In this document: one piece after another, positions 8,572-36,973 of the stretch
Layout of the letters: each line of letters opens with the position of its first letter
How positions within the stretch are numbered: position 1 is the stretch's first letter
DNA from: Isoetes taiwanensis
Lineage: Eukaryota; Streptophyta; Lycopodiopsida; Isoetales; Isoetaceae
Reading direction: 5' to 3'
DNA length: 64,000 nucleotides
NCBI GenBank assembly: GCA_021234155.1
Contig: JAJEKV010000005.1
Location: forward strand, 26,568,620-26,632,619
Notes under the pieces: model-generated
Databases searched by the model: none
Told to the model about the DNA's origin: nothing
Seen by the model: only the letters and a program-made list of their open reading frames with translations
Program-made: the position numbers and the translations under genes

Positions 8572-8600
<29 letters not shown>

Positions 8601-8726
8601 CTTCTTCTTCTTCTTCTTCTTCTTCTTCTTCTTCTTCTTCTTCTTCTTCTTCTTCTTCTTCTTCTTCTTCTTCTTCTTCTTCTTCTTCTTCTTCTTCTTC
8701 TTCTTCTTCTTCTTCTTCTTCTTCTT
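8572..8726. repeat. (TTC)n microsatellite, about 51 units
   Basis: Uninterrupted TTC for about 155 bases. All six frames through it are open (Ser, Phe, Leu / Glu, Lys, Arg runs); these are not genes. It marks the left edge of array unit A0. Confidence 0.97.
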
Positions 8727-9457
8727 TTCTAAGAAGGTCAAAAATATCCATCCTTGCCATCATTATATTGGGTCCATATTTCTTCCTTTCAATCCTCTTG
8801 GATAAACACCCTTCGGCATCCTTTGACATTTTACAAATCATATTTTACCCTCAAGTTTTGCATATGAAGGAGTTCCTTCCATTATCCAAGAACGCCCTTG
8901 AGCGAGTTTGATCATATAAAAATTCCGATATAATGCTTCATGTAGATAAAGGCACATATGAGTCACGTGATCCCCAATGCCATATTAAAGAGCAGCGACC
9001 AAATCAATCTTGGCTGCCACCAATATTTGCTCAATTCATTTATTCCCGCGCAATCAATCAAATCACTGATTTTCTCTTGAAGAATCTTTTGGGAATGTGA
9101 GCTGAGGCTCCATATGGAAAACCTAGCAGTTCCTGTTAGCTCAGTTCGCCCCGTAATTTGTTACATGGTTATCATATATTATTAGTAAAAATTATAATTA
9201 AACAATACTTTACAACCAAAAAAGGAATTTAATAGACTTAGAGTCATGCCATCCTTTGTTTTGAAAAACACTATACATCAAGTTTTAGAATTGTTCAGGA
9301 GTGCACAAGCTGTTTCAGTCTGGAATACTGAAGCATGATTGTTAGACAATCATACTTCGTGACTATATTGGAATTTTTTAAGGAAATATACAACAGAAAG
9401 TATGCCATAGAAAATATACCATATAAAAGGCTATTAGTTCAAGCCGTTAGTTGTTCA
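8727..9457. repeat. Array unit A0 (partial)
   Basis: Following the microsatellite, the sequence shares blocks in order with unit A: 'aaaaatatccatcct', 'tttgacattttacaaatcat', 'ctcaagttttgcatat', 'ttccattatccaa', 'aaaaattcc.gatata'. It ends at the next (TTC)n. It lacks the exon-bearing central part of the other units, so it is a truncated or diverged copy. Confidence 0.6.
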
Positions 9458-9603
9458 TTCTTCTTCTTCTTCTTCTTCTTCTTCTTCTTCTTCTTCTTCT
9501 TCTTCTTCTTCTTCTTCTTCTTCTTCTTCTTCTTCTTCTTCTTCTTCTTCTTCTTCTTCTTCTTCTTCTTCTTCTTCTTCTTCTTCTTCTTCTTCTTCTT
9601 CTT
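9458..9603. repeat. (TTC)n microsatellite, about 48 units
   Basis: Uninterrupted TTC. It separates units A0 and A. Open frames through it are artefacts of the repeat. Confidence 0.97.
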
Positions 9604-12081
9604 GTTAATGTTTACGTCAAAATTTTACTGTTATATGAACCAGTCATAAAAACAGCTCCATCTAAGAAGTAAACTGTCTAAAAATATCCATCCTAGTGAA
9701 TCTAGGCCACAGCATAAAGCTACCCTCAATATATTGGTCAAAAACATATATTACTAGCTTTCAATATCTAATTTTCAGAAATTTCCATTTACGTTATCCC
9801 TTTGACATTTTACAAATCATATTTTACCACCTCAAGTTTTGCATATCCTTTTTACTCTTAAACTACTATAACCATTCCATTATCCAACTTACAATCTGAT
9901 AGTTTGATCTCAAATAAAAATTCCAGATATATTCCTTGTTAAATTATGTTATATTATATCCGTTCATCTTCACCCTGTTTTAAATACTCAATCATTTCAG
10001 CTTATATTATTTAAAATTTCATTTATTCCAACAATCATACACTGCCGACACTGCAGTGGTTATTAACTAATAGAGATTCCATAAATTTGAGTAGCTTTTT
10101 TTAAAAAAACTCACAAAGTATTGAGCTACGCAGTATTCTAGCATTATAGAACGATCTCACCATGTCCATAATCAGTATGACATAGTGTCTTTTGGTAATA
10201 ACTCTTCGTATCCTCATTGTGTAACCCGAAAGCCTTAAAAAGAACTTGTAGGAGGAGATGTTTAGGTTACCTGCATCCAACCAATACACTAGTTAGCAAT
10301 AATTTGGTAAAAGTGCAAGGGACGTCAGGTAAGCAATTAAACATCTCGGCTCTTCGCCCTTCACCTAATCTTCAGTAAGTATTACGGGCCAGATTTACTA
10401 GACTTAGATAGTCATGCAAATATACCAGCATCCAAACGATTTCAAATGGAATATGTTTATCTCTTAGCTGCTTACCCCAGCTACTTCATAGAGAGGTTTC
10501 ATCTGGTATTTCATACAGCATAATATTTATTTCATATTAAGCTTCCACAAGCAGCCTATAGGTTAGGATACAGCAATTATCATTTATGTTCCATGCCTAG
10601 GTAGATGTATCCCTGTATTATGAAGATATTAAGGCATATTACCAGCAATTAGGCTTTTCTCCTAAGCATGCATATGCATTTTCTAGTCTACGTTACCTGA
10701 CCAGAAGATATGGAGCACATGCAAATAACTGGTCTGGGGCTCACAAAGCATTTATCCAGTTCTATTTCATCACTTCAAACTTGTAACTTTATGATATTAA
10801 CATCCTGAAAAATTCGTATAATATTGCAGATAGATAATAAGGGCCACAAGCATATTATTTTAAAGTACAATGTCAGTCCATCGATTTTTGCCTCCCTATC
10901 AGCCCATGCAACTGTTATATTATTTTCTTAGCTGAGCAGATACTATAGCAGCCCGCCATTCGTGACAATTATTATTCAAGCTTCAGAATATTTAAGAACT
11001 GAGCATATAGTTAGTAACCAAACAGACCGTTATCCTATGCTATCCTTATACAATATCTGAGATTTCAAAAGGAAAGACAGAAAAAGATGTTTTTGAGCCA
11101 AACGAAACCTGTTTTGGTTCGCTCCTTTCACTAGCTCCAGCTCGCACATCTTTTATAACATTAGCTTGCCTCGCACCATTATTTGGCCCTCGAAATCTTC
11201 TGTATGGGAAGTTCCCAGCTTGCTGGGCTCTGCTCCTGTTGCCTGGCTGCCTTGTGTATACACCTTTCGGCATTTTTCTCAGAGTTACGATGAATGGCAG
11301 TATCACTAGGAGGTTTTAGAACGGTAGAGCATATAGCAGAGAGCAAAGTAGGCGCAGGTGACTTATCCTTCCCGCCGGACTTATGATATAATGAAATACT
11401 TAAGTCATATCACTTATACGAAAATGAAATTCTGGTCTTACCTTATAAATTCGGCCAGCGCAATAACTACAGAATATTTGGTATCCATCTCGATTTCGAG
11501 TTCTCCACCAAGGTCAGGTCTCGAGCCACTCGACATTAAATGAGGTCTGGCTGAATAAATTGGGTCCAATATTAATCATACCCATTACATTTATTTAAAT
11601 AAACATATATCAATAATTATGAGACCATGGTTTTTATTTTTCTTAGATATTGGTGTACATCCATCAAAATACAACTCCACCATAATATTTTACACCAACA
11701 AATGTGCTCCAGGAAACCCAACCACATAGGCCCTGAAGCTAACCTTACCGAATTCACCTTGTCATAATAGTTATATGGCATTATACATATGATTCTGCAA
11801 ACCCAACTTAATGCACCTGCCAAAGGTCCAACATTTTTGCTTTTAAGCATCCCCAGCTTTAAGACATTTGAGCAGCACCTTGAACTTCATGTACTCAATC
11901 CCATACTGAGCATCTATATGTCCCATAATCTTTATCGTATAGTGTAGTTACCCTTTATGAACACTAATACATGATATCCTTGACATCCATTAATAGTGGT
12001 GCCATGTGTCTCTCAACAAAACCACTTGGTACATTATTACACATATCATACAGATTTATTTCTTTTTCTTCTTCTTCTTCT
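9604..12081. repeat. Array unit A (most diverged full-length copy)
   Basis: Starts after (TTC)n with a diverged version of the unit head (acagctccatctaagaagta, then aaaatatccatc, then ggccacagc), passes through the conserved exon-2 block (10,161-10,270) and exon-1 block (11,109-11,273), and ends at a short (TTC)n at 12,063-12,081. Similarity to units B and C is clear only in blocks, so this is an old copy. Confidence 0.6.
10161..11273 (-). pseudogene. Array gene family, copy A: exon 1 (11,109-11,273) and exon 2 (10,161-10,270)
   Basis: On the minus strand, exon 1 reads from an ATG as MPKGVYTRQPGNRSRAQQAG and ends after 55 codons in SEPKQ at a donor CAG/GTTTCG. An intron of about 840 bases ends with a branch-like TTGCTAAC and acceptor TTGGATGCAG. 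Exon 2 (110 bases) ends at the donor ATG/GTGAGATCG. The same acceptor and donor are kept in all five copies. In the frame used by copies C and D (phase 0), copy A meets a TAA at the second codon of exon 2 after VT's position, so the copy is broken. I do not recognise the protein. No downstream exon was identified. Splicing is inferred, not shown. Confidence 0.5.
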
Positions 12082-15765: not shown

Positions 15766-15791
15766 GGTCTAGTCTGACAGGTGTAGAACCA

Positions 15792-16068: not shown

Positions 16069-18822
16069 CAGTAAAAACATTTTTTTACACACCGCTTCAA
16101 GACGAAGAATACCCAACACATATCCATCCTCATGGCGTTAATACCACAAATGGAAGGCACAATACCTAAAACATCATTTCCATAATATTTCCATAATACT
16201 GTAACATCAATTCCACATTAGCATTTTAATACGTATATAGAGTTTTAGAATTCTACCAATGTAACGTACAAAGTATAGAGTGTAAAGTATTTTACATCCT
16301 TTTAGAAAGCATATCAATGTTCCTATTTCAAATCTCATATGAGCATTTAATTTTCAGAATTTCAGAAAATATAGTATTCACAAAGTAAACATTAGTCATA
16401 TAATTTCTAAATATCTGCATCATATTTTATTATATCATATGTCAACATACAATTTCCAGCATATTAATTTCCCAATATATATTATATCATAGTTTAAAAC
16501 ATGTAGACCATTATCATAAACTATCTCTACATCTCAAAGTTTTTAAATCTAATAGCCATGCATTAATTTATGTAACAAAGTTTCATGAAGGAATCTAACT
16601 TATATCTTTCTTTTTTCATTATGACAGCCTACAATCTCTCATCATATGTCGCCAATATTCTTAGTACCCCTCAGATTTAGTTAGATCTCACCAAATGTGG
16701 TAGGAGATATGGATTTGTTGAGCGTTTTATCCTTGTTACATCTTCCATTGTGGTTGCCTTTGTGCTGCAACCTCATAACTTTGAAAGAACAGGAGATAGA
16801 GTCTCGGTTACCTGCACCCAAACAGACCAATATTAGCATGAAAATGGTAATAAGGAAAGGGGCGTCAGGTAAGCAATGAGACACTATGGCTCTTCGCTTC
16901 TTCACCTATTCTTTTCAAAGAAGAATGGTGTATTATAAGCAAAATGAGCTCTAGAACTTACCATAAATCTTAGAAAAGCAATAAATTATCTAAAAGTCAA
17001 GCACACCAGCTTTTTAGTCTGGCATATTAGCATAAAATCAGCCAAATGGAAAGCATACAAGTCTTAACCTTGCAGCCATTAACCCAGCCAATAGCAAATC
17101 TCAAATGCAAGAGTGCTGGTTTCAGTAAAATAGAAAAATGTGTTCAAATGCAATAAATATTAGTGTATGGTCAACAATACCAATACATATCTTATGTGAA
17201 TCAACAATTAATAAAAATAAGGTACATTATTCTAGGGCAATGTATCATCCTAAACCTGCCTAAAATGATCTGCCAACAAAACTTGTGAGCAAAATACTTG
17301 GTCACATTAGTTTATTTCCTACATTAGTTTATCCGATCTCATTAGATTCTACTCAAACACTTAGATAAGCATGTACAGCCGCCTTAAATAAGCAGATGTC
17401 CTAAACCATCTGGCCTTATGGCAAAAACCGGATGTATGCAGGCCATATAAAGCTCAGATATTTCAACAAAATCGTCATCCAAAACTATGTATCGATGCAA
17501 GTTTCTCAGAAGCATGTTTCGTAAATATTTCTAGATAGACTTTTCAATTAAAAAATCATTTGTTTTATCATGAATCATTACCAAAAGTGGACTACAAATT
17601 CGTGATAAGCTATCCCTCAAGCATAGTATGTATTCTAGAGCAAATATCGAGCAAATCGGCAAGATCTTACCATAAGAATAGCATCAAACCTATTCTTAGC
17701 CCATACAGGCATCATTTTTATCTCTCGCTTTTTGCATGAGTCATTACTAAACGTAGACTACAAAAACAGATAAGCTATAGGAACCTGGTTTTGGTCGCTC
17801 CTCTTCCTGGCCTCTTGCTTCGTTCGTTCTTCATCATTATCATTCCATGCTTGTCTCATTGGAGGAGGGTTCACAAACTGTTGTACCACCGCCACCGAAA
17901 TATAAACACCTTTAGGCATTTCGATCTTCCACAAACGCATGTATATGGTGCAAATACGAGTAGCCGCTTCGAAGTTGTATTTAGGGTATGCCCTAAACCT
18001 AAATATCCAAAACGAATTTTTTGTCCTCAAAAAGCCACATTTGTGCCATTACGCATCTACTTGGTTATGTGAGAGACAATCAAAGCCATTCAAATTGCCA
18101 TAATCAGATAATTTCTCGACACTTTGGCTTTGCCCAAAATATTCTAAGGCATTTACCATATATCGATGCATTTAAACGCATTTAATGCCACCGTCCATCT
18201 TAATTATGTGGCATGGCAAAATATCCCATCATATTTGAACAATATTTTGGAAGCCCTATAAGGTCCCGTAATTAAAAGCAACTTCGGCATCTTCAAATGG
18301 TGTTCCATTATCGTGAGTACTTTGGACCAACTTACAAGGTACATTGACGCCCATCTTTCAAATAATAAAGGTGCATGCATGCATAAGTTCTTACTATAGG
18401 AAAAGTTTATTGTAATACCTCTTTATAAAAATTATGATCCATAAAGTCAATGAATATATTATAGGACTTAGAAGAAATATGCAACTTTTAAGAAATTAGA
18501 GTATTAGCATATCATGAAAAAAGCTTGTAGAAATTTTTGCATCGATCAAATAATAACCTATTAACCATATGTTTATACCATTCTTGTGTGGCTCAAATTT
18601 ATCCAACGAACCACTAAAGAACAACTTTTGGCAACTTCATTCTATAGTTGGCCCATGTGGACTATGTTTACACCATGTGAACCATGTGACATGGCATACA
18701 TTAGACTAAAAAATTCATATAAAAGAGCACCCTTTGCACACCTTCCATAGGCATATCTAAATCATTGGAGCATTATCAAAAGATGAAGAATCTTCTTCTT
18801 CTTCTTCTTCTTCTTCTTCTTC
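16069..18822. repeat. Array unit B
   Basis: Starts at 'agtaaaaacattttttt' and ends at a (TTC)n of about 32 bases (18,791-18,822). Unit C repeats it at an offset of about 3,297 bases with roughly 95% identity by eye. Differences are clustered in short patches rather than spread evenly. Within it, the words 'ctgcttacaccagc' and 'gcttaccccagc' recur in the intron portion of several units. Confidence 0.85.
16692..17919 (-). pseudogene. Array gene family, copy B: exon 1 (17,785-17,919) and exon 2 (16,692-16,811)
   Basis: Exon 1 on the minus strand starts MPKGVYISVAVVQQFV and ends ERTKQEARKRSDQNQ at donor CAG/GTTCCT (45 codons). The intron of about 970 bases ends with TGCTAAT and acceptor TTTGGGTGCAG. 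Exon 2 is 120 bases (40 codons, phase 0 at both ends) and ends TTG/GTGAGATCT. Joined in phase 0 it reads VTETLSPVLSKL then a stop, so this copy is broken in exon 2. A different frame is open across the intron end (MKKRRAIVSHCLPDAPFLIT... to a stop at 16,681) and looks like a secretory leader, but it is not kept in copies D and E, so I prefer the spliced reading. Function unknown. Confidence 0.5.
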
Positions 18823-19367
18823 TCCCACAATCCCTCCCTCAGGATGTAGGATACCTCTTTTTATAAGGAAAGCAGGACCCCCCTTATAAAAAGAGGGGTC
18901 CTACTTCCTTACACCAGAAGAAAAAGGATTTATAGAATCCATTCAATTTGCAGTAATAGTAACGTTTGTATTTAGGTAGTATGAGGTGCAATGGACCAAA
19001 TACCATATCCGCTGTAGCAGATAAATCAAAAACTAGCACAATAGACTAGTTCAAGACTTGACAAATTGTCAAGGTTTCATATTTGTGAGGTACATGGGGC
19101 ACAATGGGCCCTAGGCACCAAAGACAACCTGGCTTGCATAAGAGATTCATTTAGCAGATAACTCCATCATGATATCAAAAAAGATTCTATTGCAGGATAA
19201 CTCCATCAAGATATCAGAAGAGATAACTTCATCAATACATCAAAAAATAGAGCTATCTAAAACTTACCTAGGTACGACCAACCAATTGTGGATGCCAGAT
19301 ATCTCCAGCAAATGGAAGTCCCGATTTCTTCTTCGATACATCTTCATCAGGACTACTAACAGATTAT
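18823..19367. repeat. Inter-unit segment between B and C, with fold-back hairpin 18,842-18,908
   Basis: Begins right after the microsatellite with 'cccacaatccctccctca'. Arms at 18,842-18,868 and 18,882-18,908 pair over 24 of 27 positions (loop AAAGCAGGACCCC). The rest has scattered similarity to the matching segment after unit D (33,747-34,434), for example 'ggcacaatgggcc' against 'ggcacattgggcc'. No coding frame recognised. Confidence 0.75.
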
Positions 19368-22103: not shown

Positions 22104-22104
<1 letters not shown>

Positions 22105-23500: not shown

Positions 23501-24213
23501 TAGTATACATTGTTTTATCTTTGGGTAGTGTCCATCACATTTAGTCCCCGTGTTTTTTCGTGTTCAAAACCATGGGAGAGTATAAGACCGGGCCGATCTT
23601 CTTTTTCACGTCCGCTGTCTTCTTTTACAGGGAGTTGACACAAGGATTGGGCCATTTCCTACATCCGTGACACGTTTGTTTGCTGGAGCTCAATCAGCTG
23701 TAAGTTGCCCTAGAAAAAAAAAGCACCAGCAGCATGTTTTTTGTCCACTTTTCCGCTGTTTTTACAACAATAGACATTATAGCATGCACATTGTGTTCAG
23801 GGTAGATGGCTGTTTTCTTAAGAGTAATTTATGCACTAGGAATGATTTGCTGGTGTAGCATAGCAGTCAGACAATTGTTTCGTAGGCTGGACCTGTTATG
23901 TTGATTGTCTTCCTTTATGTTGATTGTCTTCCTTTATAAAATGCCTCGAACTTGCATTTGCATTTCCAAGGACTGAAAATCAGCATTTGCACAGTTTTGT
24001 TATATCAATCTTGATCATGGGCAGCAGCCAGATTCTAATTCTTTCTTTCAGCGGCTTTCCGGGCGTTGATTCCCTTGCTTAGACAAAACCAGCAGTTCAT
24101 TCAAGAGCTTTTGCAAGGTTAGTACTTTTTTAAATGCTTTCGGATTAGTTTAGTTTAATTTTGCAAAGGATTGTCTTTTAGCTATGCTTCTGATTTATAG
24201 CTATGTTTTTTGA

Positions 24214-24636
24214 ATGAGATATTTAATTAACGTCTTCTTTAGACTGTCCTCTACTATACACATGTCCATGCCAGTCCTTGCTGAAACTTGGTCTAATTCA
24301 TTTTCCTATTTGCATGTAGATGGTACAAATTTTGGTGCCATGGTATGCTTTTGGCGGCCATGTTGTCGAATAAACCGATTCGAAAGGAGGTGCATGTTAG
24401 TCGATCTCCTTTGTTGTCAAAGCCTTGGGGTCGGGTATGAGTGGCGTACCTTTGGCCCATGTCCAAAATGTGTAGATGAGATGACATTGGTTGACATTGA
24501 TAAGCTGCTGGTCAAGCTTGAGAACTTCTACAACGAAAGTACTTTCGTGGAAGTAAGGAATGTCAAAGAAGTCATTGACGATATGCTTTTTGCATTGAAG
24601 AATGGGGAAGATGGGGGGTTTAACCATAATAGTTGA
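24214..24636 (+). CDS. Hypothetical Cys-containing protein inside the Helitron
   Basis: 140 codons. The second half looks coding: RRCMLVDLLCCQSLGVGYEW, then FGPCPKCVDEMTLVDIDKLL and an acidic/helical stretch ending in NGEDGGFNHNS. CPKC and other cysteines could bind zinc. It sits between the 5' terminus and the Rep gene, on the same strand, where plant Helitrons may hold captured fragments or accessory genes. Sequence before about 24,320 is less convincing and may belong to an intron. No family recognised. Confidence 0.35.
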   Translation: MRYLINVFFRLSSTIHMSMPVLAETWSNSFSYLHVDGTNFGAMVCFWRPCCRINRFERRCMLVDLLCCQSLGVGYEWRTFGPCPKCVDEMTLVDIDKLLVKLENFYNESTFVEVRNVKEVIDDMLFALKNGEDGGFNHNS

Positions 24637-25214
24637 GTTCTTAGGAAGCTGTATATGGTAGGTTGCTTTGTGAGCAGCCCATTTTGAGCAAGTTATATAG
24701 TCCTTTTATTTTGATAAAAGAGTATTGAATCTCAAATACTCTTCTATTGTATTTCATCAAAATTAATCAAGTACATGCCTTATGTACCTTTTTGATGTAA
24801 CTCAATCATTTTGGTTAGTGGATAAAACAACTTATCTATCTATTTCACTCCATTATTTTATTGTCATTTAAGATCTTGCACCTCCTCCTTATTCATGTCA
24901 CTTACATGAATTTGAAAGTTAATATTGTTGTTTCTTGGAAAGAAAAACAATAACTCTTTGATTTCATACCACATAAATGTGTTTAAGATGTACTCATTAG
25001 GGTGCCAATGGCAACAAACTTTTTTTTCTTTTTTTGCCTTATGCCCTTAATATGGCTACTTCTTCAACTTTTTTTTACTATCCAATGGTCCCTTTAGGGT
25101 GGCATGGGCATGTGTTGTGTTTGAGGTCAACCCCTAGCTCACACTCTCTAAGATGATTTTTTAGCTTCTACACTTTGACCTTATGTAAAGTATAAATGTC
25201 TTCATGTAAGATGC
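24637..25214. other. Helitron spacer, AT-rich, no gene seen
   Basis: No coding frame or repeat recognised. This is the likely promoter/leader region for the Rep/helicase gene. Confidence 0.4.
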
Positions 25215-27404
25215 TTGCTTCATGTAAGATGTAATTTTGCACACTTAGGATGTTGTTGTAAGCCTTTAATAAACTCCCCATTGGATCCATATGCTTATGT
25301 TCATAATCAGGTTATGGTGACATCAATAAGTATGAGTCGTAGAACGAATGGAAAGGATATGAATGTCACACCAGAACAAGAATCAAAGTCAGCTAGAAAG
25401 AGGCGTCTGGCTCGCAAACGTAAGTTAACATGGAGGGCACGAGCGCGTGGAAAGGGAGAAGATGATGATGTGAATGATTGTGCGTGCAAGGGAGATGGAA
25501 CTACCTATGGAAGTATTGTCAGAAGCTTGCAACATGAATTGAATGAGTGTGGATCAATTGATGCATCGACAAGTACGGGTGCCATTAGTTTGTTGCCAAG
25601 TGAGATTGGAGATGATGAACGTGCTGGGGCTTTACCACGTGACGTAACTATGTGGGGCACTTCAGTGAACCTTGGAGTGACCCCAGATGTTACACCAGAA
25701 CAAGAATCAAAGTCAGCTAGAAAGAGGCGTCTGGCTCGCAAACGTAAGTTAACATGGAGGGCACGAGCGCGTGGAAAGGGAGAAGATGATGTTGTGAATG
25801 ATCGTGCATGCAAGGGAGATGGAACTACCTATGGAAGTATTGTCAGAAGCTTGCAACATGAATTGAATGAGTGTTTATCAATTGATGCATCGACAAGTAG
25901 TGGTGCCATTAGTTTGTTGCCAAGTGAGATTGGAGATGATGAACGTGCTGGGGGTTTACCACGTGACGTAACTATGTGGGGCACTTCAGTGAACCTTGGA
26001 GTGACCCCAGATGTTATACGACAAAATTTGATCTATCAAACACCTGAGCAAGGAGAGACTATGGAGGAGAAGATACGCACAGAAGAATCAAGACGATGGC
26101 CAAGGCTAGAGCATTAGCTAGAGAATTTGCTTAACGCCATCTTAACGCCCAGGAGCACACCAATAGCTTCGTGTTTGACAGATGAGTGTGGGGATGCAAT
26201 GAATGGAGATAATATTGGAGCAGCATCGGGTGAATACTCTGAACTTAGGGACGTACAGCATGCCACCATTGCCTCAATGCAGAGTGACAGTATTGTTGTG
26301 GAGGGTGATGCAGTGGAAGCAGTATTGCATCTAAATTCTTCTGCAAGTGTGCCGCATGAAGAGCCAAGTAGCATCGGTGCACGCGTTAGCATGAGGAGGA
26401 TGAACTTAAGGCGTTTAGAGGCAGCACAAGATAATGATGGGGACCCGCCACCAACCGAGGTAATAATAAGGAGAAGGGTTGGATTTTGGAAAATAGCTTG
26501 GAGTGACGCAACTCCACAGTATTGTGATGCGGGGAGGATGAGCAAAAAATGCAAGGACTGTGGGGCTTTGTTGTGGAAGGATGAGCTTGACACATTTTGT
26601 TGCTCTAATGGGAAGGTTTCATTGCCACCCTTCCCAGCCCCCCCACCAACTCTCATGGATCTATACACACGGACGGATGAGATTGGAAAGGACTTCCGGT
26701 CGGGTATTAGAAAATATAACAACGCCCTTGCATTTGCATCATTGGCTGTCAAACTCGATGCCTCCTTGGCAAACTCTATTGGAGGTGCATACACTTTCAG
26801 AGTCAATGGCCGGATGTGTCACATGATGGGAACGTTGCTGCCTGATAGCCAGGACGATAGCCCGTGCTTTGCACAAATATATATCATGGATGGGGATGAA
26901 ATGCAGCTGGATCGTCGTACATCATTCAGTGGAGGTACACGGCGTGATACAATGGCATGCCTTCAACACATGATGGCAGATGTAAACCCTTTCGTTCATA
27001 TATTTCTCTCAGCTGCTGAGGTCATGCGAGCAAATCCAGCTATTGACATGCGTCTTCGGATACCAAGTGCAAACCTACGGGATCCACGTAGGCGACAATA
27101 TAGTTCCCCGACTGCAAATGAGATAGCAATATTAATGCCAATTGACTCTGGCCCAGAAGACAACCTCAGAGACATTGTAGTACATTCTAAAGAAGGAGGA
27201 ATCAGGCATATTGACTCGCTACATTCATCATATGATGCTCTACAGTATGCACTCCTCTTTCCCTATGGAACCGATGGTTGGCATACAGGGATCCAACAGG
27301 TGAACAAACCAAAGGGCGTAACTATCTTGCAGTTCTATAAATATCATCTACGTGCACGCAGGGCATGGATGGACCATTGCATATCGCAGGAGATTGTTCC
27401 ATGA
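25215..27404 (+). pseudogene. Helitron Rep/helicase, N-terminal part
   Basis: One reading frame across 25,215-27,404 with a single TAG at 26,115-26,117. The first 300 codons contain a duplicated 108-residue block rich in basic residues (SARKRRLARKRKL), likely a nuclear-localisation or DNA-binding region. After the stop, near 26,540-26,620, comes the zinc-finger-like block CKDCGALLWKDE...FCC followed by GKVSLPPFPAPPPTL, and then FRVNGRMCHMMGTLLPDSQD and FAQIYIMDGDEMQLDRRTSF, all standard in the region before the HUH Rep domain of plant Helitrons. The frame ends at 27,404 in MDHCISQEIVP, where intact relatives continue into the Rep domain. The start is uncertain; an ATG at 25,332 or 25,362 is also possible. 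Confidence 0.85.
25368..26015 (+). repeat. In-frame tandem duplication in the Rep N-terminus, unit 324 bp
   Basis: 'ccagaacaagaatcaaagtc' occurs at 25,371 and 25,695. The two 324-base units (108 codons) differ at only a few positions and the duplication keeps the reading frame. Confidence 0.95.
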
Positions 27405-27482
27405 GTACATCCGTGACATGTTTGCTAAGATGTGGCGCATAAGGTTGGGGTGGGTACAATTAAATCGGGCTCAACTACGTGA

Positions 27483-28482
27483 GTGAGTCAGATAGTGGTA
27501 TTGTGGATTCCACCGGGGCACGATGGAAATTCCATTGGGCGACGGTCATTCTACCAAAGAACATTTCTTGGGAGCACACGCTACATGACTCAACTTTACC
27601 AAGATGCGATGGCAATTGTTCGTGAGCTAGGCCGACCGGATTTGTTCATCACTATGACTGCCAACCCAAAGTGGCCGAAATTACCGGGAGCTCATAAATG
27701 GCCAAGATCCTTCCGGCAGCACTGATTTAGTAGCCCGTGTCTTCCACTTAAAGTTGAAGGAGCTGTTAGAGATCGTGGTCGCACCATGGCATATTTGGCC
27801 GCATTTCGCTAGGATTCATGTCATTGAGTTTCGTAAGAGGGGCTTCCTCATGTGCATCTCCTTAACATATTGTTTCAGAGGACAAGCCGACAAATCGAGG
27901 ATATAGATAAATTGATTTCTGCAGATTCCGATAAGGAGTCCAATCCTCGAAATGATGATGTGGTGACACGTCCGATGATGCATGGGCCCCGTGGGCCCTA
28001 CATATCCCAATGCCCCATGTATGGTTGATGGAGTTTAGTAGAAGGGGTACCCAAAGCAATTTCTCGAGCGACCATGATTAGCAACGGGTACCCAATCGTA
28101 TAGACGTAGAAATGATGGGAGAACCGGCTTCATCGAAATGGCATGAACATGGACAATAGATGGGTTGTACCTTACAATCCATGGTTGTCGTGGCTATTTT
28201 AGATGCCATATCAATGTTGAGATATGTGCTCATATTAAAGGAGTCAAATATCTATACAAGTATATTTACAAAGGCCCGCATATGATATCGCTGAACTTAG
28301 GGCGTGGTTCCGAGAGAGTGTCACCACGACGAAGCGCTATAAGTGATGACCATGACGAAGTCCAAAAATATGTCAATGCCAAATACTATTCTCGCCTCCG
28401 AGGGCGGCGCATGGCGGTTGTTCAAGTTTGGACCGCAAGAACAAAATCCTCATGTTGTGCGATTGGCGCTTCACCTTCCTAA
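27483..28482 (+). pseudogene. Helitron Rep domain (HUH endonuclease), frameshifted
   Basis: 27,483-27,725 reads FLGSTRYMTQLYQDAMAIV and LFITMTANPKWP, both Rep signatures. The HUH motif itself is present as LPHVHLL (HVH codons at 27,849-27,857), but a one-base deletion in the preceding AGGGG run throws the frame, so the longer frame reads through it as FLMCISL. 28,165-28,482 resumes with HINVEICAHIKGVKYLYKYI, containing the two-tyrosine region that makes the covalent DNA link. Several stops lie between (27,726-28,165). The enzyme would nick and join single strands at the termini; this copy cannot be translated intact as the sequence stands. Confidence 0.85.
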
Positions 28483-28803
28483 CGAGCAACCAAACTTTTT
28501 CACCTAAAATGCGGACTTAGACGATGTGGTTAACAATGCACATGACACCACTCTCATGGGTTGGTTTAAGGTGAATGCTGCAAATGAACACCCGTGTCCC
28601 AACTTTGTTGTACCATGACTTTCCCAAGAGCTTCACTTGGAGCAAAGCGACATACACATGGACAATACGTCAACGATTCGTGTCTTGCCATCCGTGGGTA
28701 GAATGTACTTTGTGACTCCGGCCCCGTATGCGGCGATTTTATTTTATGAATGTTGCTAAGCAATGTACCAGAGCTACATGTTTTGAAGATTTGAGAACCG
28801 TAG

Positions 28804-30675
28804 ATGGTCATTTGTGCGAGACGCTCAAGCATGCATGTATTAGGCTTAATGATTGTGAATGATAATTCAGAATGGGTCGAATCGCCACGAAGCATCATCT
28901 TGGGGTATGCCGCCAATTCGCGACAATTATTTGCTTCGATTCTGCTGGAATGTAACCCATTGTATCCAGCTGATATTTGGAAGGAGTTGGAATATTGGAT
29001 GGTTGAGGATTTTCTAGACCAAACTGCTTATGCTGCTTATTCTGAGACAGGTCAGTTGAGTCAGTATGCTATTGATATGGGACTAATGGATGTGGAGGAT
29101 CACATGCAATCAGCTGGAAGGAGCCTAGCAGAAATGGGCTTCAACTTACCAGAAACTGTGCTAGACACATCCACACTATTCCAGGAGGAGATGTTCTATG
29201 TGAGTATGGATAAAGTCATATCCGATTCCGAGAAGTTGAACATTGATCAACGAGCAGTTTATGATGTTGTTCTCAATCATGTGATCGATAAGACTAATGG
29301 TGGAGTATTCTTTGTGAATGGCCCTGGGGGAACCGGAAAAACATATCTATATAACACTCTCCTAGGATATGTGCGTGCAAGGGGTTGGATTGCTCTAGCA
29401 GTTGCATCTTCTGGCATTGCGTCAGTGCTATTGCAAGGCGGAAGAACGGCTCATTCACGTTTTAAAATACCCATAGGGGCACACGAATCATCTACCTGCA
29501 ACATTCCAAGGCAGTCAGAATTGGCAAGACTCATTCGAGCATGTCGGTTGATCGTATGGGATGAGGCACCAATGATGCACAAGTGGATATTTGAGGCAGT
29601 GGATAGGACACTAAGAGATGTGATGGGCAATGAGCAGACACCATTTGGTGGGATTCCAGTGCTATTGGGAGGGGACTTTCGACAGATACTACCAGTGGTT
29701 CCTAAAGGTTCACGTGCACAAATTGTAGAAGCTTCTCTAAAGCGTTCGTATCTCTGGGATAGTGTGAGAGAGTACAAACTAACAATCAACATGCGTGTCA
29801 TGAATGCACTGGGTTTGGATGCGCTTGAACAACAAGCATTTGCTGATTATTTATTACGTATAGGGGATGGGCGAGAACCAACCTTTCCGGAGAAGGGGGT
29901 CGATATGGTGCATTTGCCACAGGATATGTGTCTTGGATCGGATGATGTGGATGATTTAATTCAAGACATATTTCCTGATATCCAACAAAACTGGAAAGAG
30001 GTGATTTTTTGGACACACCGTGCTATACTATCACCTTTGAACCATTTTGTGGATGAGATCAATAGGAAGGTGGCGTCACTTATCCCTGGAGAGACGACAG
30101 ACTACTTCAGTGCTGATCGAATCATAGACACAGACGGTCAGCAAGCAGGTCTATACCCCATTGAGTTTCTAAATGCACAAACTCCAAGTGGTGTACCGCC
30201 CCACGAGCTAAATCTGAAGGTGGGAATGATTGTCATGTTGTTGAGGTCTACGTCATTCAAGAAGGGCCTGTGCAATGGAACACGATTGATTATACGAAAG
30301 CTAGGAAGACGTGTCATTGAGGCCGAGATAGTAACTGGAACCCATGTTGGTAACACGGTTCTTCTATCTCGCATTCCAATTGTGCCTAATGATTCAGGGT
30401 TGCCTTTCCAGTTTGAAAGGGTTCAATTCCCTTTGCGGCCGGCCTTTGCCATGACGATAAACAAGTCTCGTACCAGACAATGCATAAGGTGGGGTTATAT
30501 CTTCCAAAGCCTGTCTTTACGCATGGACAATTATATGTGGCATTCTCAAGGGTACAAAACCGACAAGGAATTCGGGTCGCTATCAAGGACCCACCATCCA
30601 TGCCTCAAGAAGATGCCAATACAATTTCAAGGTTTACGAGGAATGTCGCTTTATCTGAGATGCTTTGTGATGGAG
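28804..30675 (+). pseudogene. Helitron helicase (PIF1-like SF1B), nearly complete, one late frameshift
   Basis: Long frame to about 30,470 with Walker A GPGGTGKTYLYN (29,320-29,355), Walker B VWDEAPMMHK (about 29,553), LLGGDFRQILPVV, NMRV, and HELNLKVGMIVMLLR ... GLCNGTRL, then FAMTINKS. The last helicase block continues one frame over from 30,480 (VGLYLPKPVFTHGQLYVAFS), so there is a small indel near 30,465-30,475. The segment 28,483-28,803 also belongs to the same gene in other frames (RATCFEDLRTVDG near 28,767), where relatives link Rep to helicase. Following 30,675 there is a canonical donor (GAG/GTAAGT). Role: 5'-3' unwinding during rolling-circle transfer. Confidence 0.9.
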
Positions 30676-30792
30676 GTAAGTGTCATGTCTTCGACTAAAG
30701 CTTTGACAACCATATAGTGCATGTATATATGTGTTTCTTCTCAAAGACTCTCATGTTTCTTTGGCACTTATTGACCTTCAGAATTTGTGCAG

Positions 30793-31292
30793 ATGATGAA
30801 GCCCTACACACCCTTAGCACCTCTGAACTTGGAAATCCTAAGCCAAGGGCTTATAGTTCACGTGCATCGTAGGGATGGTGAGTGTAAGATATGTTAGTTC
30901 TAACAATAACTATTTTCTTTTATCTTACTTTGGAATGATATCTTATTATTGTAGGGAGTTATGTGGTTGTTGATAACACCCGTTGGCGCGTTGCTGTGTT
31001 AGAGTCAAAAAAGTTCCCCTCGAAGTACACATGCAAGGGAACTTGCTTCAGGGCAGGAGGCATCACACACATTGGCGTTTGCGATGGGAGACGGTTCAAG
31101 GCCTGGGCATCGATCCCACATGATGCAGTTGGTGACTATGAGCTTCCCGAGTTTCTAACCAAGTATAACATTGTTGTTGGTAGACCTGAGTCACGCGTGT
31201 GGGACATGGTATCAGAGCATGTTTACACATTCATGTTCGCCACCATAGGTACGACGGGAGGAGTTTCTATTCCTATATCGGCCGCAAAATGA
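30793..31292 (+). CDS. Two-exon ORF 3' of the Helitron helicase, function unknown
   Basis: After a candidate intron (30,676-30,792, GTAAGT...TTGTGCAG), an ATG at 30,793 opens MMKPYTPLAPLNLEILSQGL and IVHVHRRD, ending at donor GATG/GTGAGT (30,878). A 77-base intron ends TTATTGTAG (30,954). The frame continues GSYVVVDNTRWRVAVLESKK, then YTCKGTCFRAGGITHIGVCD and FKAWASIPHDAVGDYELPEF, to a TAA at 31,292. Both splice sites are textbook and the frame is intact across intron 2 (about 140 residues in all). Beta-strand-rich pattern with three cysteines. It could be a C-terminal module of the Rep/helicase, an accessory Helitron protein or a captured gene. Not recognised. Confidence 0.55.
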
Positions 31293-31583
31293 GCTTCACA
31301 TTGAGCCAACAGACGTTCCTAGAGTTGTTTGGGACAGGTTCTTCATGATGTGGATCCATTGAGCCGACGGACATAACCTCTATTTGCGCCAAAAATATTT
31401 TGTATATTTGTATTTATTTTTGTTTATGAACTTCATATTATGTTTACACTTTAAAGGTAAAGTTTGTTTCCTTTCAATATGTGTCTATTGCACCTAAACA
31501 TATATTGCCTTAAGCGCATTGCGCACCTTCGCGACACGACAATGACTAACGCACATAAATGCCAACACACGTCCACGACTAAT

Positions 31584-31612
31584 GCCCGGCATCGCCGGGC
31601 ACACGTTTCTAG
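31584..31612 (+). other. Helitron 3' terminal hairpin and CTAG end
   Basis: GCCCGGC-ATC-GCCGGGC (31,584-31,600), an A-T pair extending the stem by one, then 'cacgttt' and CTAG. This is the family's transposition stop signal. Confidence 0.95.
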
Positions 31613-31836
31613 TTGTTTTTCATCTTATAGTACATCAGAATTCTAAATATATAAACCTTCATAATAAGCTCTCTTCAAATTTCAGATTATTGCTGAATAC
31701 TAAAGTCTTGATCCATTTGCATTATTTCATGAAGGAATCTCAGTCCAACTAGTCTTCTTCCAACAATAATAGCAATGTTATCATGTCTTTTGCTGACCAT
31801 ATTCTTTGTACACATCAAAATTTAGGAAGATCTCAC

Positions 31837-31956
31837 CCTATTGAGTCGTGGATCTGAATTTGTTGCACATATTTTACCAATTATATCTTCCATTGTAGTT
31901 GCCTTCATGCTGCAACTATGTAACTTTGAAAGAACAGGAGATAGAGTCTCGGTTAC
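31837..31956 (-). pseudogene. Array gene family, copy D: exon 2
   Basis: 120 bases between acceptor TTGTTTGGGTGCAG (branch-like TGCTAAC upstream) and donor AGG/GTGAGATCT. Phase-0 reading is open throughout: VTETLSPVLSKLHSCSMKAT, then MEDIIGKICATNSDPRLNR. The exon-1 block (MPKGVY...) found in copies A-C is not recognisable in D; only the stretch further upstream on the minus strand (AAAATTCGTTTTTGACATTT) aligns. So D is also incomplete as a gene. Confidence 0.45.
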
Positions 31957-33707
31957 CTGCACCCAAACAATGCCAATGTTAGCAAATCATGGTAACAAGA
32001 CAAGGGGCGTCAGGTAAGCTATGAGACACTATGGCTCTTCGCCCTTCACCCATTCATATACAAAGTAGAATGGTGTTATATAAGCAAATTGAGCTCTAAT
32101 CTTTAGTGCAAAAATGCAGATGTATTAAATAACATTATATTCAAGTGAATGGCTGCCTACCTCAGCCATATATCTATGTTCAAACAGTCAAAATTCTGTA
32201 GGCATATGTCCATGATACCATAAAGCAAACAAAACCAAAGTGCATGCTTCAGTCTACTGATATATGCACACATATCCAGCATATATACTCATATTTAACA
32301 TGCATTTTGTCTGCTTACACCAGCCATACTTCAATGCATATCTGTCTAAAAACATCAGGTAAATGAAACCTTTAGATTTTGTGCATGACAGCAAGTATGT
32401 TCCATTATTTTATTGTTTCAACATCTACTTCTAAGAATCGCTTCATCTATATTTGGACATGCCTAAGCATGTCGCTGGATCATAAATATAGATTAGAAAG
32501 CTAAAAAACATTGAAAAAACACGGATATATATACTCCTAGCATCCCCGCCGATCACGTCAAGTATTGGGAGGAAAGTCTCCAACCTTTAGCTTCAGAAAT
32601 ATGCTCCATCCATGACAGTGAGCAATATAGTAAGCATAAAAGGATCATTCCTTATGTAAAACGGCAGTGCAGCCAGCTATGCAGAAGATAAAATCTCAAG
32701 TATTCCGCACTAGTATTATGTCCCCGGATATATGAGATCATGCTCAAATGGGCGATTCGGCGCTCTACTAGCTGGATTAGGCGCCAAGCTTCGCCAAAGA
32801 CCTTTTCCCGCACATCCTCTCATGAAATACAGACCCTAAATGTCAAAAACGAATTTTAAATGTCAAAAACGAATTTTTACCGTCATGAATTATGTCGTCC
32901 ATATTGGAGATAATCTGAGCCATTCAACTAAGCCATATTGGAGGTAATCTTAATATAAGAGACTATAACTTGGATTTTTCCTCCAAGACCATGGAAATTT
33001 GCTCATAAATCTTAGCAACACACCTTTTGGTCCTTTTCGATTTCTGGAGCCACCGGTATTTAATGCGCCACAACCATTTTCTATAAAGATGGTCGCTTGT
33101 AGGCCATAGACGATATGCCAAATGCATATTAGTCACCAAATGCATGTAAAAACCATGCTATCCATAAAGACTAGGCTTTATAGTTGCCATCTCATAAATA
33201 TCTCACGCTTTTTCTTCATAAAGGAATGGTCCCACCAAAATATCAAGTATATATGTTATTTTTTATTAAGCCATCGTACCTCCATATATATCAATTATGT
33301 TTACATCCATGCACCACAAGTCAACAAAATAACATTACACTTAAAATTTTTCTTTTCTATCTTGGAGATTCAAAACCCAAATATAATAAATCGTATGAAC
33401 ATTATATTCCTTAACTTATTAGCAAATTTTCTAGTTTATGTCGTGTAACTTCCCAAACCACTTGTTCATAATCCTTATGTCTAGAAAGCATGTAACTCAA
33501 TAAATGTTCCATGATTGGCTATTGTAGACTAGAAAGCATGATTCTAAATAGCTATTGTTATTCAAATTGCAAATACTAATGTCATAGACATACCTCATCG
33601 GCCCAAATTGCCATGATCATTATTGCATGAGCCGCATGCATCATGTGTACAACATCATAGTTTCCTTGTTGCCTTTGAAAATACTTTGAAATACGAAGAA
33701 AAATATA

Positions 33708-33739
<32 letters not shown>

Positions 33740-33764
33740 CTTCTTCGCCCACAACCCTCCCTCG

Positions 33765-33838
33765 GGTAGTAGGGCGCTTCTTCTCATGGAATATAAGGAG
33801 TAGGACCCCCCTTCCATGGGAAGAAGGGCCCTACTACC
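33765..33838. repeat. Fold-back hairpin after unit D, 27-bp arms
   Basis: Arms at 33,765-33,791 and 33,812-33,838 pair at 25 of 27 positions. It lies in the same place, after (TTC)n and 'cccacaaccctccctcggg', as the hairpin at 18,842-18,908, yet most stem bases differ between the two while pairing is kept. Loop contains 'gtaggaccccc', close to 'gcaggaccccc' in the other. Confidence 0.85.
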
Positions 33839-34434
33839 TTACTACCAAGAACAATTATTTTTTGATTTGCTTTAGTTCAACAGATTATCATGATGTATTG
33901 GATAAGGCAGAGTAAGCCAATCCAAGCATATTTTCAAGTAAGATAAGGCACATTGGGCCAATATCCAAATTATGCATTGACGAGAGCTAGAGGCGCAATG
34001 GACCTTCCACCAAATGGTGGTAGCTCTCATATCATCCAAAGGCATAATATACAAGCTAACCTGATTTGGAGAAGAGAAGCACTTGCCACCAGCTATCTCC
34101 AGCATGTAGAAGTGATAGACCATGTTATTTCCATAGTTTGGGGATCAGCATTTTCTCTGTATCCCACCAGCACAGTAAAGTAAATTAAGGCTGATAACAT
34201 CTTGGACAACATAGGACAAGGTCCTGTTTTCCCCATAGCCTGCATCTAGGAGATGTATCATCCACATGAGAGAGATTAGTTCCCAAAACATCATTGATAA
34301 AATACCAAGCAAGGAATTCTTTAACATATCACAACCCTTTAAAAGGCATAGTGATCAATAACGAGAATCAACCAAGTAAAGTGTAGCTGTGCTAGTTAGA
34401 TGACTCTAACTAATGGAAGTCACATTTTCTTCTT

Positions 34435-36883
34435 ATTCACATTTACATCTAGACTTACACTACAAATGCATAAATACAAACTTATAGCTCCGTTCAAGAT
34501 GTAAATCTTTCCCATAAATATCCATCAAGGGTAAAACCCAAGCCACAGCTGAAAGGTAACCTTTACATGGTTGGAAATATGAATATGTCTAGCAAAATTA
34601 TAAAGTTAGTATAGCATTTGCCTTTCAACGTGATGCAAAAAATCAGACCATCATTTTAGAACACAGTTTTCAGAATTTCAGAAAATACGAGGTTTACAAG
34701 TTAAGCATGTGGCCATATAATTTCCAAATAAATGCATCACATATCATTATCTCATGTAATATCATTAAAATTTCAGCATATTGTTTTTCATCTTATAGTA
34801 CATCAGAATTCTAAATATATAAACCTTCATAATAAGCTCTCTTCAAATTTCAGATTATTGCTGAATACTAAAGTCTTGATCCATTTGCATTATTTCATGA
34901 AGGAATCTCAGTCCAACTAGTCTTCTTCCAACAATAATAGCAATGTTATCATGTCTTTTGCTGACCATATTCTTTGTACACATCAAAATTTAGGAAGATC
35001 TCACCCTATTGAGTCGTGGATCTGAATTTGTTGCACATATTTTACCAATTATATCTTCCATTGTAGTTGCCTTCATGCTGCAACTATGTAACTTTCAAAG
35101 AACAGGAGATAGAGTCTCGGTTACCTGCACCCAAACAATGCCAATGTTAGCAAATCATGGTAACAAGACAAGGGGCGTCAGGTAAGCTATGAGACACTAT
35201 GGCTCTTCGCCCTTCACCCATTCATATACAAAGTAGAATGGTGTTATATAAGCAAATTGAGCTCTAATCTTTATTGCAAAAATGCAGATGTATTAAATAA
35301 CATAATATTCAAGTGAATGGCTGCCTACCTCAGCCATATATCTATGTTCAAACAGTCAATATTCTGTAGGCATATGTCCATGATACCATAAAGCAAACAA
35401 AACCAAAGTGCATGCTTCAGTCTACTGGTATATGCACACATATCCAGCATATATACTCATATTTAACATGCATTTTGTCTGCTTACACCAGCCATACTTC
35501 AATGCATATCTGTCTAAAAACATCAGGTAAATGAAACCTTTAGATTTTGTGCATGACAGCAAGTATGTTCCATTATTTTATTGTTTCAACATCTACTTCT
35601 AAGAATCGCTTCATCTATATTTGGACATGCCTAAGCATGTCGCTGGATCATAAATATAGATTAGAAAGCTAAAAAACATTGAAAAAACCTGGATATATGC
35701 GCTCCTAGCATCCTGCCTGGATCACGTCAAGTATTGGGAGGAAAGTCTCCAACCTTTAGCTTCAGAAATATGCTCCATCCATGACAGTGAGCAATATAGT
35801 AAGCATAAAAGGATCATTCCTTATGTAAAACGGCAGTGCAGCCAGCTATGCAGAAGATAAAATCTCAAGTATTCCGCACTAGTATTCCGCACTGGATATA
35901 CAGTATCATGCTCAAATGGGCAGATTCGGCGCTCTACTAGCTGGATTAGGCGCCAAGCTTCTGCCAAAGACCTTTTCCGGGCACATCCTCTCATGAAATA
36001 CAGACCCTAAATGTCAAAAACGAATTTTAAATGTCAAAAACGAATTTTTACCGTCATGAATTATGTCGTCCATATTGGAGATAATCTGAGCCATTCAACT
36101 AAGCCATATTGGAGGTAATCTTAATATAAGAGACTATAACTTGGATTTTTCCTCCAAGACCATGGAAATTTGCTCATAAATCTTAGCAACACACCTTTTG
36201 GTCCTTTTCGATTTCTGGAGCCACCGGTATTTAATGCGCCACAACCATTTTCTATAAAGATGGTCGCTTGTAGGCCATAGACGATATGCCAAATGCATAT
36301 TAGTCACCAAATGCATGTAAAAACCATGCTATCCATAAAGACTAGGCTTTATAGTTGCCATCTCATAAATATCTCACGCTTTTTCTTCATAAAGGAATGG
36401 TCCCACCAAAATATCAAGTATATATGTTATTTTTTATTAAGCCATCGTACCTCCATATATATCAATTATGTTTACATCCATGCACCACAAGTCAACAAAA
36501 TAACATTACACTTAAAATTTTTCTTTTCTATCTTGGAGATTCAAAAACCAAATATAATAAATAGTATGAACATTATATTCCTTAACTTATTAGCAAATTT
36601 TCTAGTTTATGTCGTGTAACTTCCCAAACCACTTGTTCATAATCCTTATGTCTAGAAAGCATGTAACTCAATAAATGTTCCATGATTGGCTATTGTAGAC
36701 TAGAAAGCATGATTCTAAATAGCTATTGTTATTCAAATTGCAAATACTAATGTCATAGACATACCTCATCGGCCCAAATTGCCATGATCATTATTGCATG
36801 AGCCGCATGCATCATGTGTACAACATCATAGTTTCCTTGTTGCCTTTGAAAATACTTTGAAATACGAAGAAAAATATATACTT
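34435..36883. repeat. Array unit E, holding the Helitron empty site at 34,780/34,781
   Basis: Duplicate of unit D at an offset of 3,168 bases. It reads straight through the Helitron insertion point ('tttcagcata' joined to 'ttgtttttca'). The match to D ends at the microsatellite: D has 'atatac' then (TTC)12, E has 'atatacttct' then (CTC)30 and unrelated sequence. Confidence 0.95.
35005..35124 (-). pseudogene. Array gene family, copy E: exon 2
   Basis: Same 120-base block, acceptor and donor as copy D. One base change turns TCA into TGA in the phase-0 frame (VTETLSPVL then stop), so this copy is broken while its twin D is open. Confidence 0.45.
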
Positions 36884-36973
36884 CTCCTCCTCCTCCTCCT
36901 CCTCCTCCTCCTCCTCCTCCTCCTCCTCCTCCTCCTCCTCCTCCTCCTCCTCCTCCTCCTCCTCCTCCTCCTC
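36884..36973. repeat. (CTC)30 microsatellite at the end of unit E
   Basis: Thirty perfect CTC units at the position where the twin unit D has (TTC)12. Long Leu and Glu frames through it are artefacts. Confidence 0.97.

Follow-up and report, generated by a model that had tools for sequence, protein, structure and literature searches.

A conserved structured RNA in repeated units of Isoetes taiwanensis that are probably remnants of an intron-bearing Penelope-like retroelement

We analysed a 64,000-nucleotide stretch of the lycophyte Isoetes taiwanensis (contig JAJEKV010000005.1; hereafter the window), in which five related units, A to E, lie on the minus strand between positions 8,572 and 36,973. 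A first-pass annotation had described these units as a tandem array sharing a conserved exon with splice signals. We conclude that they are probably pseudo-long terminal repeat (pLTR) blocks of a family of intron-bearing Penelope-like retroelements (PLEs) without a detected GIY-YIG domain, in which a structured RNA in the first intron would mark the template and a (GAA)n end would serve in priming. The genome searched comprised 1,658,258,908 bases in 1,110 contigs, with the window inside contig C1056 (26568620-26632619). Unit letters follow the first-pass annotation by coordinate (A at ~10 kb, B at 16.1-18.8 kb, C at 19.3-22.1 kb, then D and E); in our alignment A2 the row names of B and C are swapped, so that row "B" is copy C.

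Results

Full-length copies encode a reverse transcriptase

Full copies of the element are 7.4 kb long and carry a first exon beginning MPKGVY, a first open reading frame (ORF1) of ~500 amino acids (aa) and a reverse transcriptase (RT) of ~700 aa. Their order is (GAA)n, 5' region, exon 1 of ORF1, intron 1 with the structured RNA, ORF1, RT, 3' hairpins and (GAA)n. The nearest relatives of exon 1 of copy A, 91% identical there, lie at locus L036 (contig C1059), a tandem of 7.38-kb units coding for a 495-aa ORF and an RT in two frame pieces. A second full-length copy, L037, is ~75% identical to L036 in DNA, and unbroken RT frames of 704-736 aa were found in four further copies (L038-L041). Pfam RVT_1 was matched by all four full RT frames (best E 2.5e-6). 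When the genome was searched with the RT, all 108 scored places matched, 90 of them without stops (scored from 3,528 first-look candidates). Pairwise comparison of RT sequences gave pN (nonsynonymous) values of 0.11-0.43 against pS (synonymous) values of 0.76-0.86; the RT is therefore under strong selection. No RT or ORF1 match was present inside the window at E <= 1e-5.

The RT looks Penelope-like. Its motifs run K.HK..R, D...CYENIP, GIPMGFACSP..N.YL..E, RYMDD, FLN and YDKR..L.F, an order that, as judged by inspection, resembles that of Penelope-like RTs. No GIY-YIG domain was found in the scanned ORF1 and RT frames, and among the best candidates, to which both place lists are confined, the closest of 121 GIY-YIG places to any of 108 RT places was 73.8 kb away. 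The two-ORF plan, ORF1 of ~500 aa and an RT of ~700 aa lacking GIY-YIG, is that of endonuclease-deficient PLEs. The RT had no relatives in IMG/VR and no match in PDB, where P0001 gave chance-level matches alone and none by profile; the core DNA had no relatives among phage records. A literature search of titles and abstracts found no description of this Isoetes Penelope-like element, and the word "Penelope" is absent from the main text of the genome paper (PMC8566536). As a separate observation, 121 of 150 scored GIY-YIG candidates genome-wide did match, mostly as short, scattered frames of ~70-200 aa.

Exon 1 is coding, and its intron appears to be kept

Three of the five units in the window carry exon 1:

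11109..11273, minus strand: exon 1 of copy A; its 55 codons (MPKGVY...EPKQ) probably form the N-terminal exon of ORF1 (genome matches; dN/dS against L036)
17785..17919, minus strand: exon 1 of copy B (sequence and frame comparison)
21072..21204, minus strand: exon 1 of copy C, 133 nt, frame damaged (sequence and frame comparison)

The protein search with exon 1 of copy A that the first-pass annotation had suggested yielded 150 scored genome matches (of 236 first-look candidates), 144 without stops, at identities down to 40%. Exon 1 of A compared with L036 has a dN/dS (nonsynonymous to synonymous rate ratio) of 0.14. Exon 1 is thus a coding exon, with a likely splice donor at its end: most of the exon-1 frames compared end ..QV, and at the DNA level CAG/GT is found in A, B, L036 and L037. 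The earlier claim that A, B and C share this exon with its donor stands for A and B; C has CGG/GT and a length not divisible by 3.

In L036 and L037 the ORF1 exon follows a ..GTAG/ string and continues exon 1 in phase 0. We searched the genome with a probe across this joint (junction at residues 15/16); among the 150 matches scored from 818 candidates, none with E < 1e-5 crossed the joint, all beginning at 13 or later. A clear copy lacking intron 1 was therefore not found, and the intron that holds the structured RNA appears to be kept. The intron at the end of ORF1 is cleanly absent in 3 of 104 matches (two on contig C1038, one on C1048), which cover 78-79 residues of the 79-aa probe with no stop; dozens of the 104 end at 66-69, the start of the intron in L036, and others are too short to tell. 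Clean loss of this intron in some copies presumably reflects an RNA intermediate. Introns otherwise appear to be kept, as is stated of PLEs (PMC3846280). That one intron may be present in or cleanly absent from related copies of the element (L037 5480-5548, L036 6540-6700) points to an RNA intermediate.

A conserved RNA fold spans the supposed splice acceptor

Self-comparison of the window showed a core common to all five units. In it, the first-pass annotation had placed a second exon, and reading the sequence directly bears out both its positions (A 10270-10161, 110 nt; B 16811-16692, C 20108-19989, D 31956-31837 and E 35124-35005, 120 nt each) and its signals, TGCTAAY and then TTGG(G/A)TGCAG before each block and GTGAGATC after it. 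What is conserved at the supposed acceptor is an RNA fold that spans the splice site, a structured RNA of ~120 nt running from AGGTGA to CTCCT, with a long arm:

10244..10367, minus strand: structured RNA, copy A (model R1 131.7 bits; alignment A2; fold z -3.78)
16785..16908, minus strand: structured RNA, copy B (R1 142.3 bits)
20082..20204, minus strand: structured RNA, copy C (R1 151.1 bits; fold z -2.72)
31930..32052, minus strand: structured RNA, copy D (R1 135.1 bits; fold z -2.48)
35098..35220, minus strand: structured RNA, copy E (R1 135.1 bits; fold z -2.48)

A 17-base anchor from the core occurs 1,607 times in the genome as against once for its reversed control, and all 40 scored places for the core of D matched (1,053 first-look candidates), so the repeated block is not due to chance.

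Alignment A2 consists of 19 of the 27 distinct cores returned by a text filter requiring GCTTACC and TGCAGGTAA. Under a nested model of 29 pairs, 97.5% of its cells are paired, compared with 87.4% after shuffling, and 62 cells show double changes, compared with 18.3 shuffled and no more than 11 when slid. None of 500 shuffles reached the observed value on four of the five measures; on the fifth, further pair types, 24 of 500 did. Helix P4 (10 bp) varies freely in sequence, with double changes at 9 of its 10 pairs; its strands are GAGATGTTTA/TAAACATCTC in A and ATAGTGTCTC/GAGACTCTAT in E.

The proposal of P4 and P1 preceded the retrieval of 40 later copies; these are 40 of the 100 places listed for the anchor GTGAAGGGCGAWRAGCC (1,607 in all), thinned against near neighbours. 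Tests that require no alignment supported three helices in these copies. The long helix, P4, scored 278 in 34 usable copies (permutation maximum 212; 0 of 20,000). The inner hairpin, P6, had a mean energy of -3.42 in 39 usable copies, against a permutation mean of -1.34 and a best of -2.40 (0 of 10,000), and P8 formed 122 of 125 pairs in 25 usable copies (permutation mean 92.3, maximum 109; 0 of 20,000). The end pair of P7 was T-A in 21 and G-C in 4 of 25 usable copies. Copies were left out where a fixed text anchor was absent, 6 of 40 for P4, 1 of 40 plus 4 of 21 of the older set for P6, and 15 of 40 for P8 and P7. Some of those left out fit the helices by eye (e.g. L074, L075), and L071 appears damaged.

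All 42 later sequences (the 40 plus L042 and L043) matched model R2, at 37.5-135.4 bits. In alignment A4, whose counts lean toward the model because it was fitted to R2, 94.2% of cells pair (73.4 shuffled) and 259 show double changes (79.0 shuffled, at most 54 when slid); the outer pair of P1 is AU in 24 rows, UA in 8, GC in 4, GU in 3 and other in 2. Minimum-energy folds of the 19 copies largely share the same long arm; eight pair the 5' end otherwise, and the remainder add a mini-hairpin, GGC-GANRA-GCC, beside P1. Variants of it are CAGC-GAAGA-GCUG in L042, GG-GAUGA-CC in L043 and CAGT-GATAA-ACTG in a copy in L034. The mini-hairpin lies inside the anchor pattern GTGAAGGGCGAWRAGCC by which the 40 later copies were chosen. 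The long arm is well supported, and with the mini-hairpin included the fold would be a three-way junction. A pseudoknot suggested by the initial 19 copies, in which GGGCG/CGCCC would cross the long helix and TTACC/GGTAA would pair in a different register, had looked strong there but was dropped: in the 40 later copies its crossing stem did not outdo shuffled segments (mean best run 5.43 against 5.46; runs of at least 5 in 33 against 32.8 copies). Its strands fit the nested model instead. CCCTT was present in 21 of the 40 later copies, with 2.8 expected.

No credible match to the element was obtained in Rfam 15 at gathering or relaxed thresholds, and weak snoRNA matches fell outside the RNA core. 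The RNA is also found upstream of ORF1 in two further families, L042 and L043, whose RTs are 40% and 42% identical to that of L038 (R1 60.7 and 51.2 bits; R2 70.9 and 62.4 bits). No MPKGVY exon was seen in the fetched stretch of either family; the RNA therefore seems older than the present exon 1.

The "exon 2" block does not behave as a protein exon

The first-pass annotation had offered several readings of this block, one of them a local gene family, now mostly pseudogenes, encoding a spliced two-exon protein. Exon 1 is indeed coding with a donor, and 14 of 35 "exon 2" blocks remain open at a length divisible by 3. As had been described, the phase-0 frame runs through in C (checked through the matching copy L026_2844-) and D but is interrupted in A, B and E. 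In A and in the full-length copies L036 and L037, however, phase 0 stops at codon 3, and pN/pS past the first 24 nt of 12 copies is nearly flat between frames, 0.82 in phase 0 as against 0.87 and 0.92 in the others. Nor is the block the better conserved part: among 18 divergent copies, mean pairwise identity falls from 0.81 in the core's "intron" half and 0.77 over the opening 20 nt of the "exon" to 0.49 across the remaining "exon", with 0.43 for either outer flank. This comparison of rates, part of the refuting test that the first-pass annotation had set, goes against its reading. Together with a distribution that is genome-wide and tied to the RT, these results largely refute the gene family, which we consider highly improbable. 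The suggestion of a repeat that had spread a gene fragment was right; exon 1 is coding, and introns are present in the element. A spliced non-coding RNA, also suggested, came nearest in spirit.

The apparent splice signals coincide with the fold. The 3' strands of P6, P8, P7 and P4 are, respectively, TGCTAAY, GGGTG, GGTAA and the beginning of "exon 2". With TGCTAAY, TTTGGGTGCAG/GTAAC and the block start all on helix strands, the splice signals of the earlier annotation are paired strands, which could also serve as splice sites. An alternative is that the fold controls splicing by hiding or showing the TGCTAAY and TGCAG/GTAAC acceptor, "exon 2" being a cassette or poison exon with its early stop. 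TGCTAAY and TGCAG are kept in most copies, a donor-like GTGAGATCT string follows, and a donor-like CTGnnGTARGCAG lies upstream in 23 of 35 rows (two rows lack upstream sequence). Against this, the strings are accounted for by the paired strands of P6, P8 and P7, which covary; L043 lacks TGCTAA yet keeps the fold, and some copies change GGGTG together with its partner. We regard splicing control as unlikely. More generally, caution is called for where a conserved block shows splice-like strings, since these can belong to the helices of a folded RNA.

Concerning the strings themselves, GTGAGATCT is well kept ~100 nt after the RNA (e.g. window 16691-16683), with poorly conserved sequence between. 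The CTGnnGTARGCAG motif, loosely defined, lies 80-275 nt upstream of the RNA and sometimes occurs twice (L024, L012, the window and others); the GGTAAGC within it is complementary to GCTTACC of the RNA and resembles a splice donor. The idea of a U1 mimic (GCUUACCUG against the upstream GGTAAGC motif) was not adopted, because the GCUUACC strands pair within the fold.

Units in the window form pLTR pairs joined by (GAA)n

Units D and E are 98.7% identical by self-comparison, and D, once rejoined across an insert at 22450-31612, is 98.8% identical to E over all 2,452 nt. B and C are about 94.5-94.6% identical (self-comparison; C against B where B exists). E plus D and C plus B are pairs of pLTR, deleted ORF and pLTR, the form of Penelope elements; A is a solo pLTR block with GAA tracts flanking both sides. 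Thus the pLTR-ORF-pLTR or partial tandem layout is seen in the two pairs and in the L036 tandem. The 28-kb stretch does contain the repeated units of the array first described; it is not one plain array, as a Helitron interrupts D. In the order of the minus strand, the parts are:

36884..36973, minus strand: (GGA)30 tract, 5' edge of element 1 (array search)
34427..36883, minus strand: unit E, 5' pLTR of element 1, from the (GGA)30 tract to internal 3' site (i) (98.8% to rejoined D; arrays)
33747..34426, minus strand: element 1 remnant between pLTRs, lacking ORF1 and RT and closed by the 3' terminal hairpins, site (ii) (3' fold z -6.35, (GAA)n directly after)
33710..33746, minus strand: (GAA)n joint, E to D (array search)
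31613..33709, minus strand: unit D, 3' pLTR of element 1, first part (self-comparison; rejoined alignment to E)
22450..31612, plus strand: Helitron inside D (ends, hairpin, PIF1 frame)
22096..22449, minus strand: unit D, final ~355 bp, displaced by the Helitron, ending at site (i) and (GAA)n (100% to end of E; joined flanks match E)
22070..22107, minus strand: (GAA)n joint, D to C (array search)
19334..22069, minus strand: unit C, 5' pLTR of element 2, to about site (i) (94.5% to B where B exists; site (i) by eye)
18824..19333, minus strand: element 2 remnant between pLTRs, ending in 3' terminal hairpins and (GAA)n (3' fold z -6.96; arrays)
18791..18823, minus strand: (GAA)n joint, C to B (array search)
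16070..18790, minus strand: unit B, 3' pLTR of element 2, truncated just short of site (i) (self-comparison; sequence; alignment to C)
9604..12061, minus strand: unit A, solo pLTR, (GAA) of 6 units 5' and 49 units 3', ending at site (i) (limits by eye against full-length L036)
9458..9603, minus strand: (GAA)49 tract, 3' edge of A (array search)

We surveyed the joints of 52 distinct units from the window and further loci, counting sides where the flank sufficed. A GA-type tract on the sense strand bordered 37 of 46 5' sides and 40 of 48 3' sides, and pyrimidine tracts bordered none. The 33 kb of the window outside 7-38 kb contained no GA tract. Strong folding was found for the 3' end ahead of the tract (three copies, z -5.48 to -6.96), and many short units end at internal site (i), where full copies hold a short AACAAGAAGAAATTG run. 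The joints seen are (GAA)n and not telomeric repeats, and the window is interior to its contig, 3.3 Mb from the nearer end.

The tracts could instead be made by the element, through slippage on an AAGAAG template, with arrays arising by unequal exchange between GAA tracts rather than by targeting. The AACAAGAAGAAATTG run at site (i) of L036 and L037 is expanded in short units, as such slippage would have it, while GA tracts also lie 5' of first units beside DNA that is unrelated by eye (e.g. L016, L023), which speaks for a target. We consider an element-made origin less likely than not.

The positions of the tracts also bear on whether the structured RNA is a self-cleaving ribozyme that stands in for the PLE hammerhead and trims array transcripts to unit length. 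It sits in the pLTR, where the anole PLE has its hammerhead (PMC11167929), and its large invariant unpaired stretches would suit a catalytic core. The GA tracts at unit ends, however, lie ~1.3-2.3 kb upstream and 0.6-1.7 kb downstream of the RNA and not at it, so no insertion end marks a cleavage site, and Rfam gave no ribozyme match. We think such a ribozyme quite unlikely.

Discussion

Several observations weigh against our interpretation of the units as parts of a PLE family with a template-marking RNA. The PLE label is based on motif order judged by inspection and on the absence of other strong family matches, and NCBIfam and PADLOC yielded just weak generic RT matches. No Rfam hammerhead was found in the window, L036, L037, L038, L042 or L043. 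Within the RNA, helices P6, P7 and P8 came to light when both sets of copies were read, and for them the later copies are no blind test, although the permutation controls stand; P7 is invariant in A2 partly by construction, because the filter demanded GCTTACC and TGCAGGTAA, and cell counts overstate independent events because many copies are related. No GA tract was found in the searched range on 9 of 46 5' sides and 8 of 48 3' sides, nor was one seen in the fetched stretches of the two distant families, which did not include the element ends. Five weak matches (E 0.017-0.094), starting at 6-10, do cross the joint between exon 1 and ORF1. Finally, retention of intron 1 may be chance, because the other intron was lost in a single lineage.

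Little is known of how PLEs select their RNA and target. A PLE was first shown to be active in vitro in 2024; its protein depends on a part of its own RNA, within which reverse transcription begins, and in the anole element the required RNA lies within the first 172 nt of the ORF (PMC11167929). The element described here shares with canonical PLEs (Penelope/Poseidon, e.g. PAc of Anolis) the pLTR-ORF-pLTR or (partial) tandem layout, 3' ends at internal sites, both described for Penelope elements, and an RNA in cis near the start of the RT (PMC11167929). It differs in having two ORFs, no GIY-YIG or hammerhead found, a different and larger RNA, and (GAA)n joints. With endonuclease-deficient PLEs (Athena/Terminons of bdelloid rotifers, and reports from Selaginella) it shares an RT without GIY-YIG, a second ORF, head-to-tail arrays and a 3' fold followed by a short repeat (PMC6431247, PMC12477314). 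In Terminons, a 3' fold and reverse-complement telomeric repeats are thought to anneal to the chromosome end (PMC6431247). Here, in contrast to Terminons, the joints are (GAA)n, the window is not telomeric, the 3' hairpins are plain, no hammerhead was found and there is a new structured RNA. What appears to be new is a structured RNA without Rfam match inside an element that is otherwise probably of PLE type.

The fold itself is evident from the paired changes; its function we infer by analogy. We propose that the RT would recognise the structured RNA which, being intronic, would flag unspliced element RNA as the template. Analogy with the anole element and the strict conservation of the RNA argue for such recognition, and the probability that the RNA is a cis signal in intron 1 recognised by the RT seems to us about evenly balanced. 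As only unspliced RNA carries it, recognition would explain why the intron is retained, and copies without an RT would remain mobile while they keep the RNA. By analogy with bdelloid Terminons, the element RNA would end in (GAA)n and might anneal to free (TTC)n 3' ends at GAA/TTC tracts, at nicks or breaks made by the host. The internal AAGAAG run at site (i) could prime as well, leaving short units, and fresh copies inserting into the tails of old ones would build head-to-tail arrays.

PLE RTs group with TERT (PMC12632851), and as with telomerase RNA, a structured RNA would accompany the RT. Here it would act in cis from within an intron; no telomerase-RNA-like template for GAA repeats was seen by eye in it, and the pseudoknot-forming stem was unsupported. 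We speculate that the RNA is a dedicated partner of a TERT-like RT, selecting the unspliced template and positioning the RT from its place in the intron, with the (GAA)n end replacing the endonuclease through free (TTC)n ends at fragile GAA/TTC tracts. This extended version is doubtful. If true, it would be an interstitial counterpart of priming at telomere ends and a possible model of the origin of telomerase RNA from an element RNA. The family offers more than 1,600 copies of the anchor, dozens of unbroken RT frames, derivatives that lack the RT and one repeat shared by most joints, so that both the recognition of RNA and the priming at the target are open to direct testing.

Other features of the window

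The insert in unit D is a Helitron of 9,163 bp that sits between an A and a T of the unit. It has A/TC...CTAG/T ends, agreeing with the A/TC...CTRR/T form, a hairpin (GCCCGGCATCGCCGGGC) near its 3' end at 31584-31600 and a PIF1-type helicase frame at 28804-30714. No Rep domain was found in the two adjacent frames scanned (312 and 428 aa; no Pfam match). The Helitron also contains an internal tandem duplication of 324 bp (25363-26016).

At 8730-8865 a second exon-1 fragment (MPKGVYPRGLKG...) is joined to a piece of the tail of A and (GAA)53, forming a rearranged remnant. Outside the units, the window holds two retroelement remnants, a 429-aa RVT_1 frame at 57865-59151 on the plus strand and a 212-aa integrase core at 39318-39953 on the minus strand, and two tRNA genes, tRNA-Met(CAT) at 50783-50854 on the plus strand and tRNA-Lys(TTT) at 51836-51909 on the minus strand.

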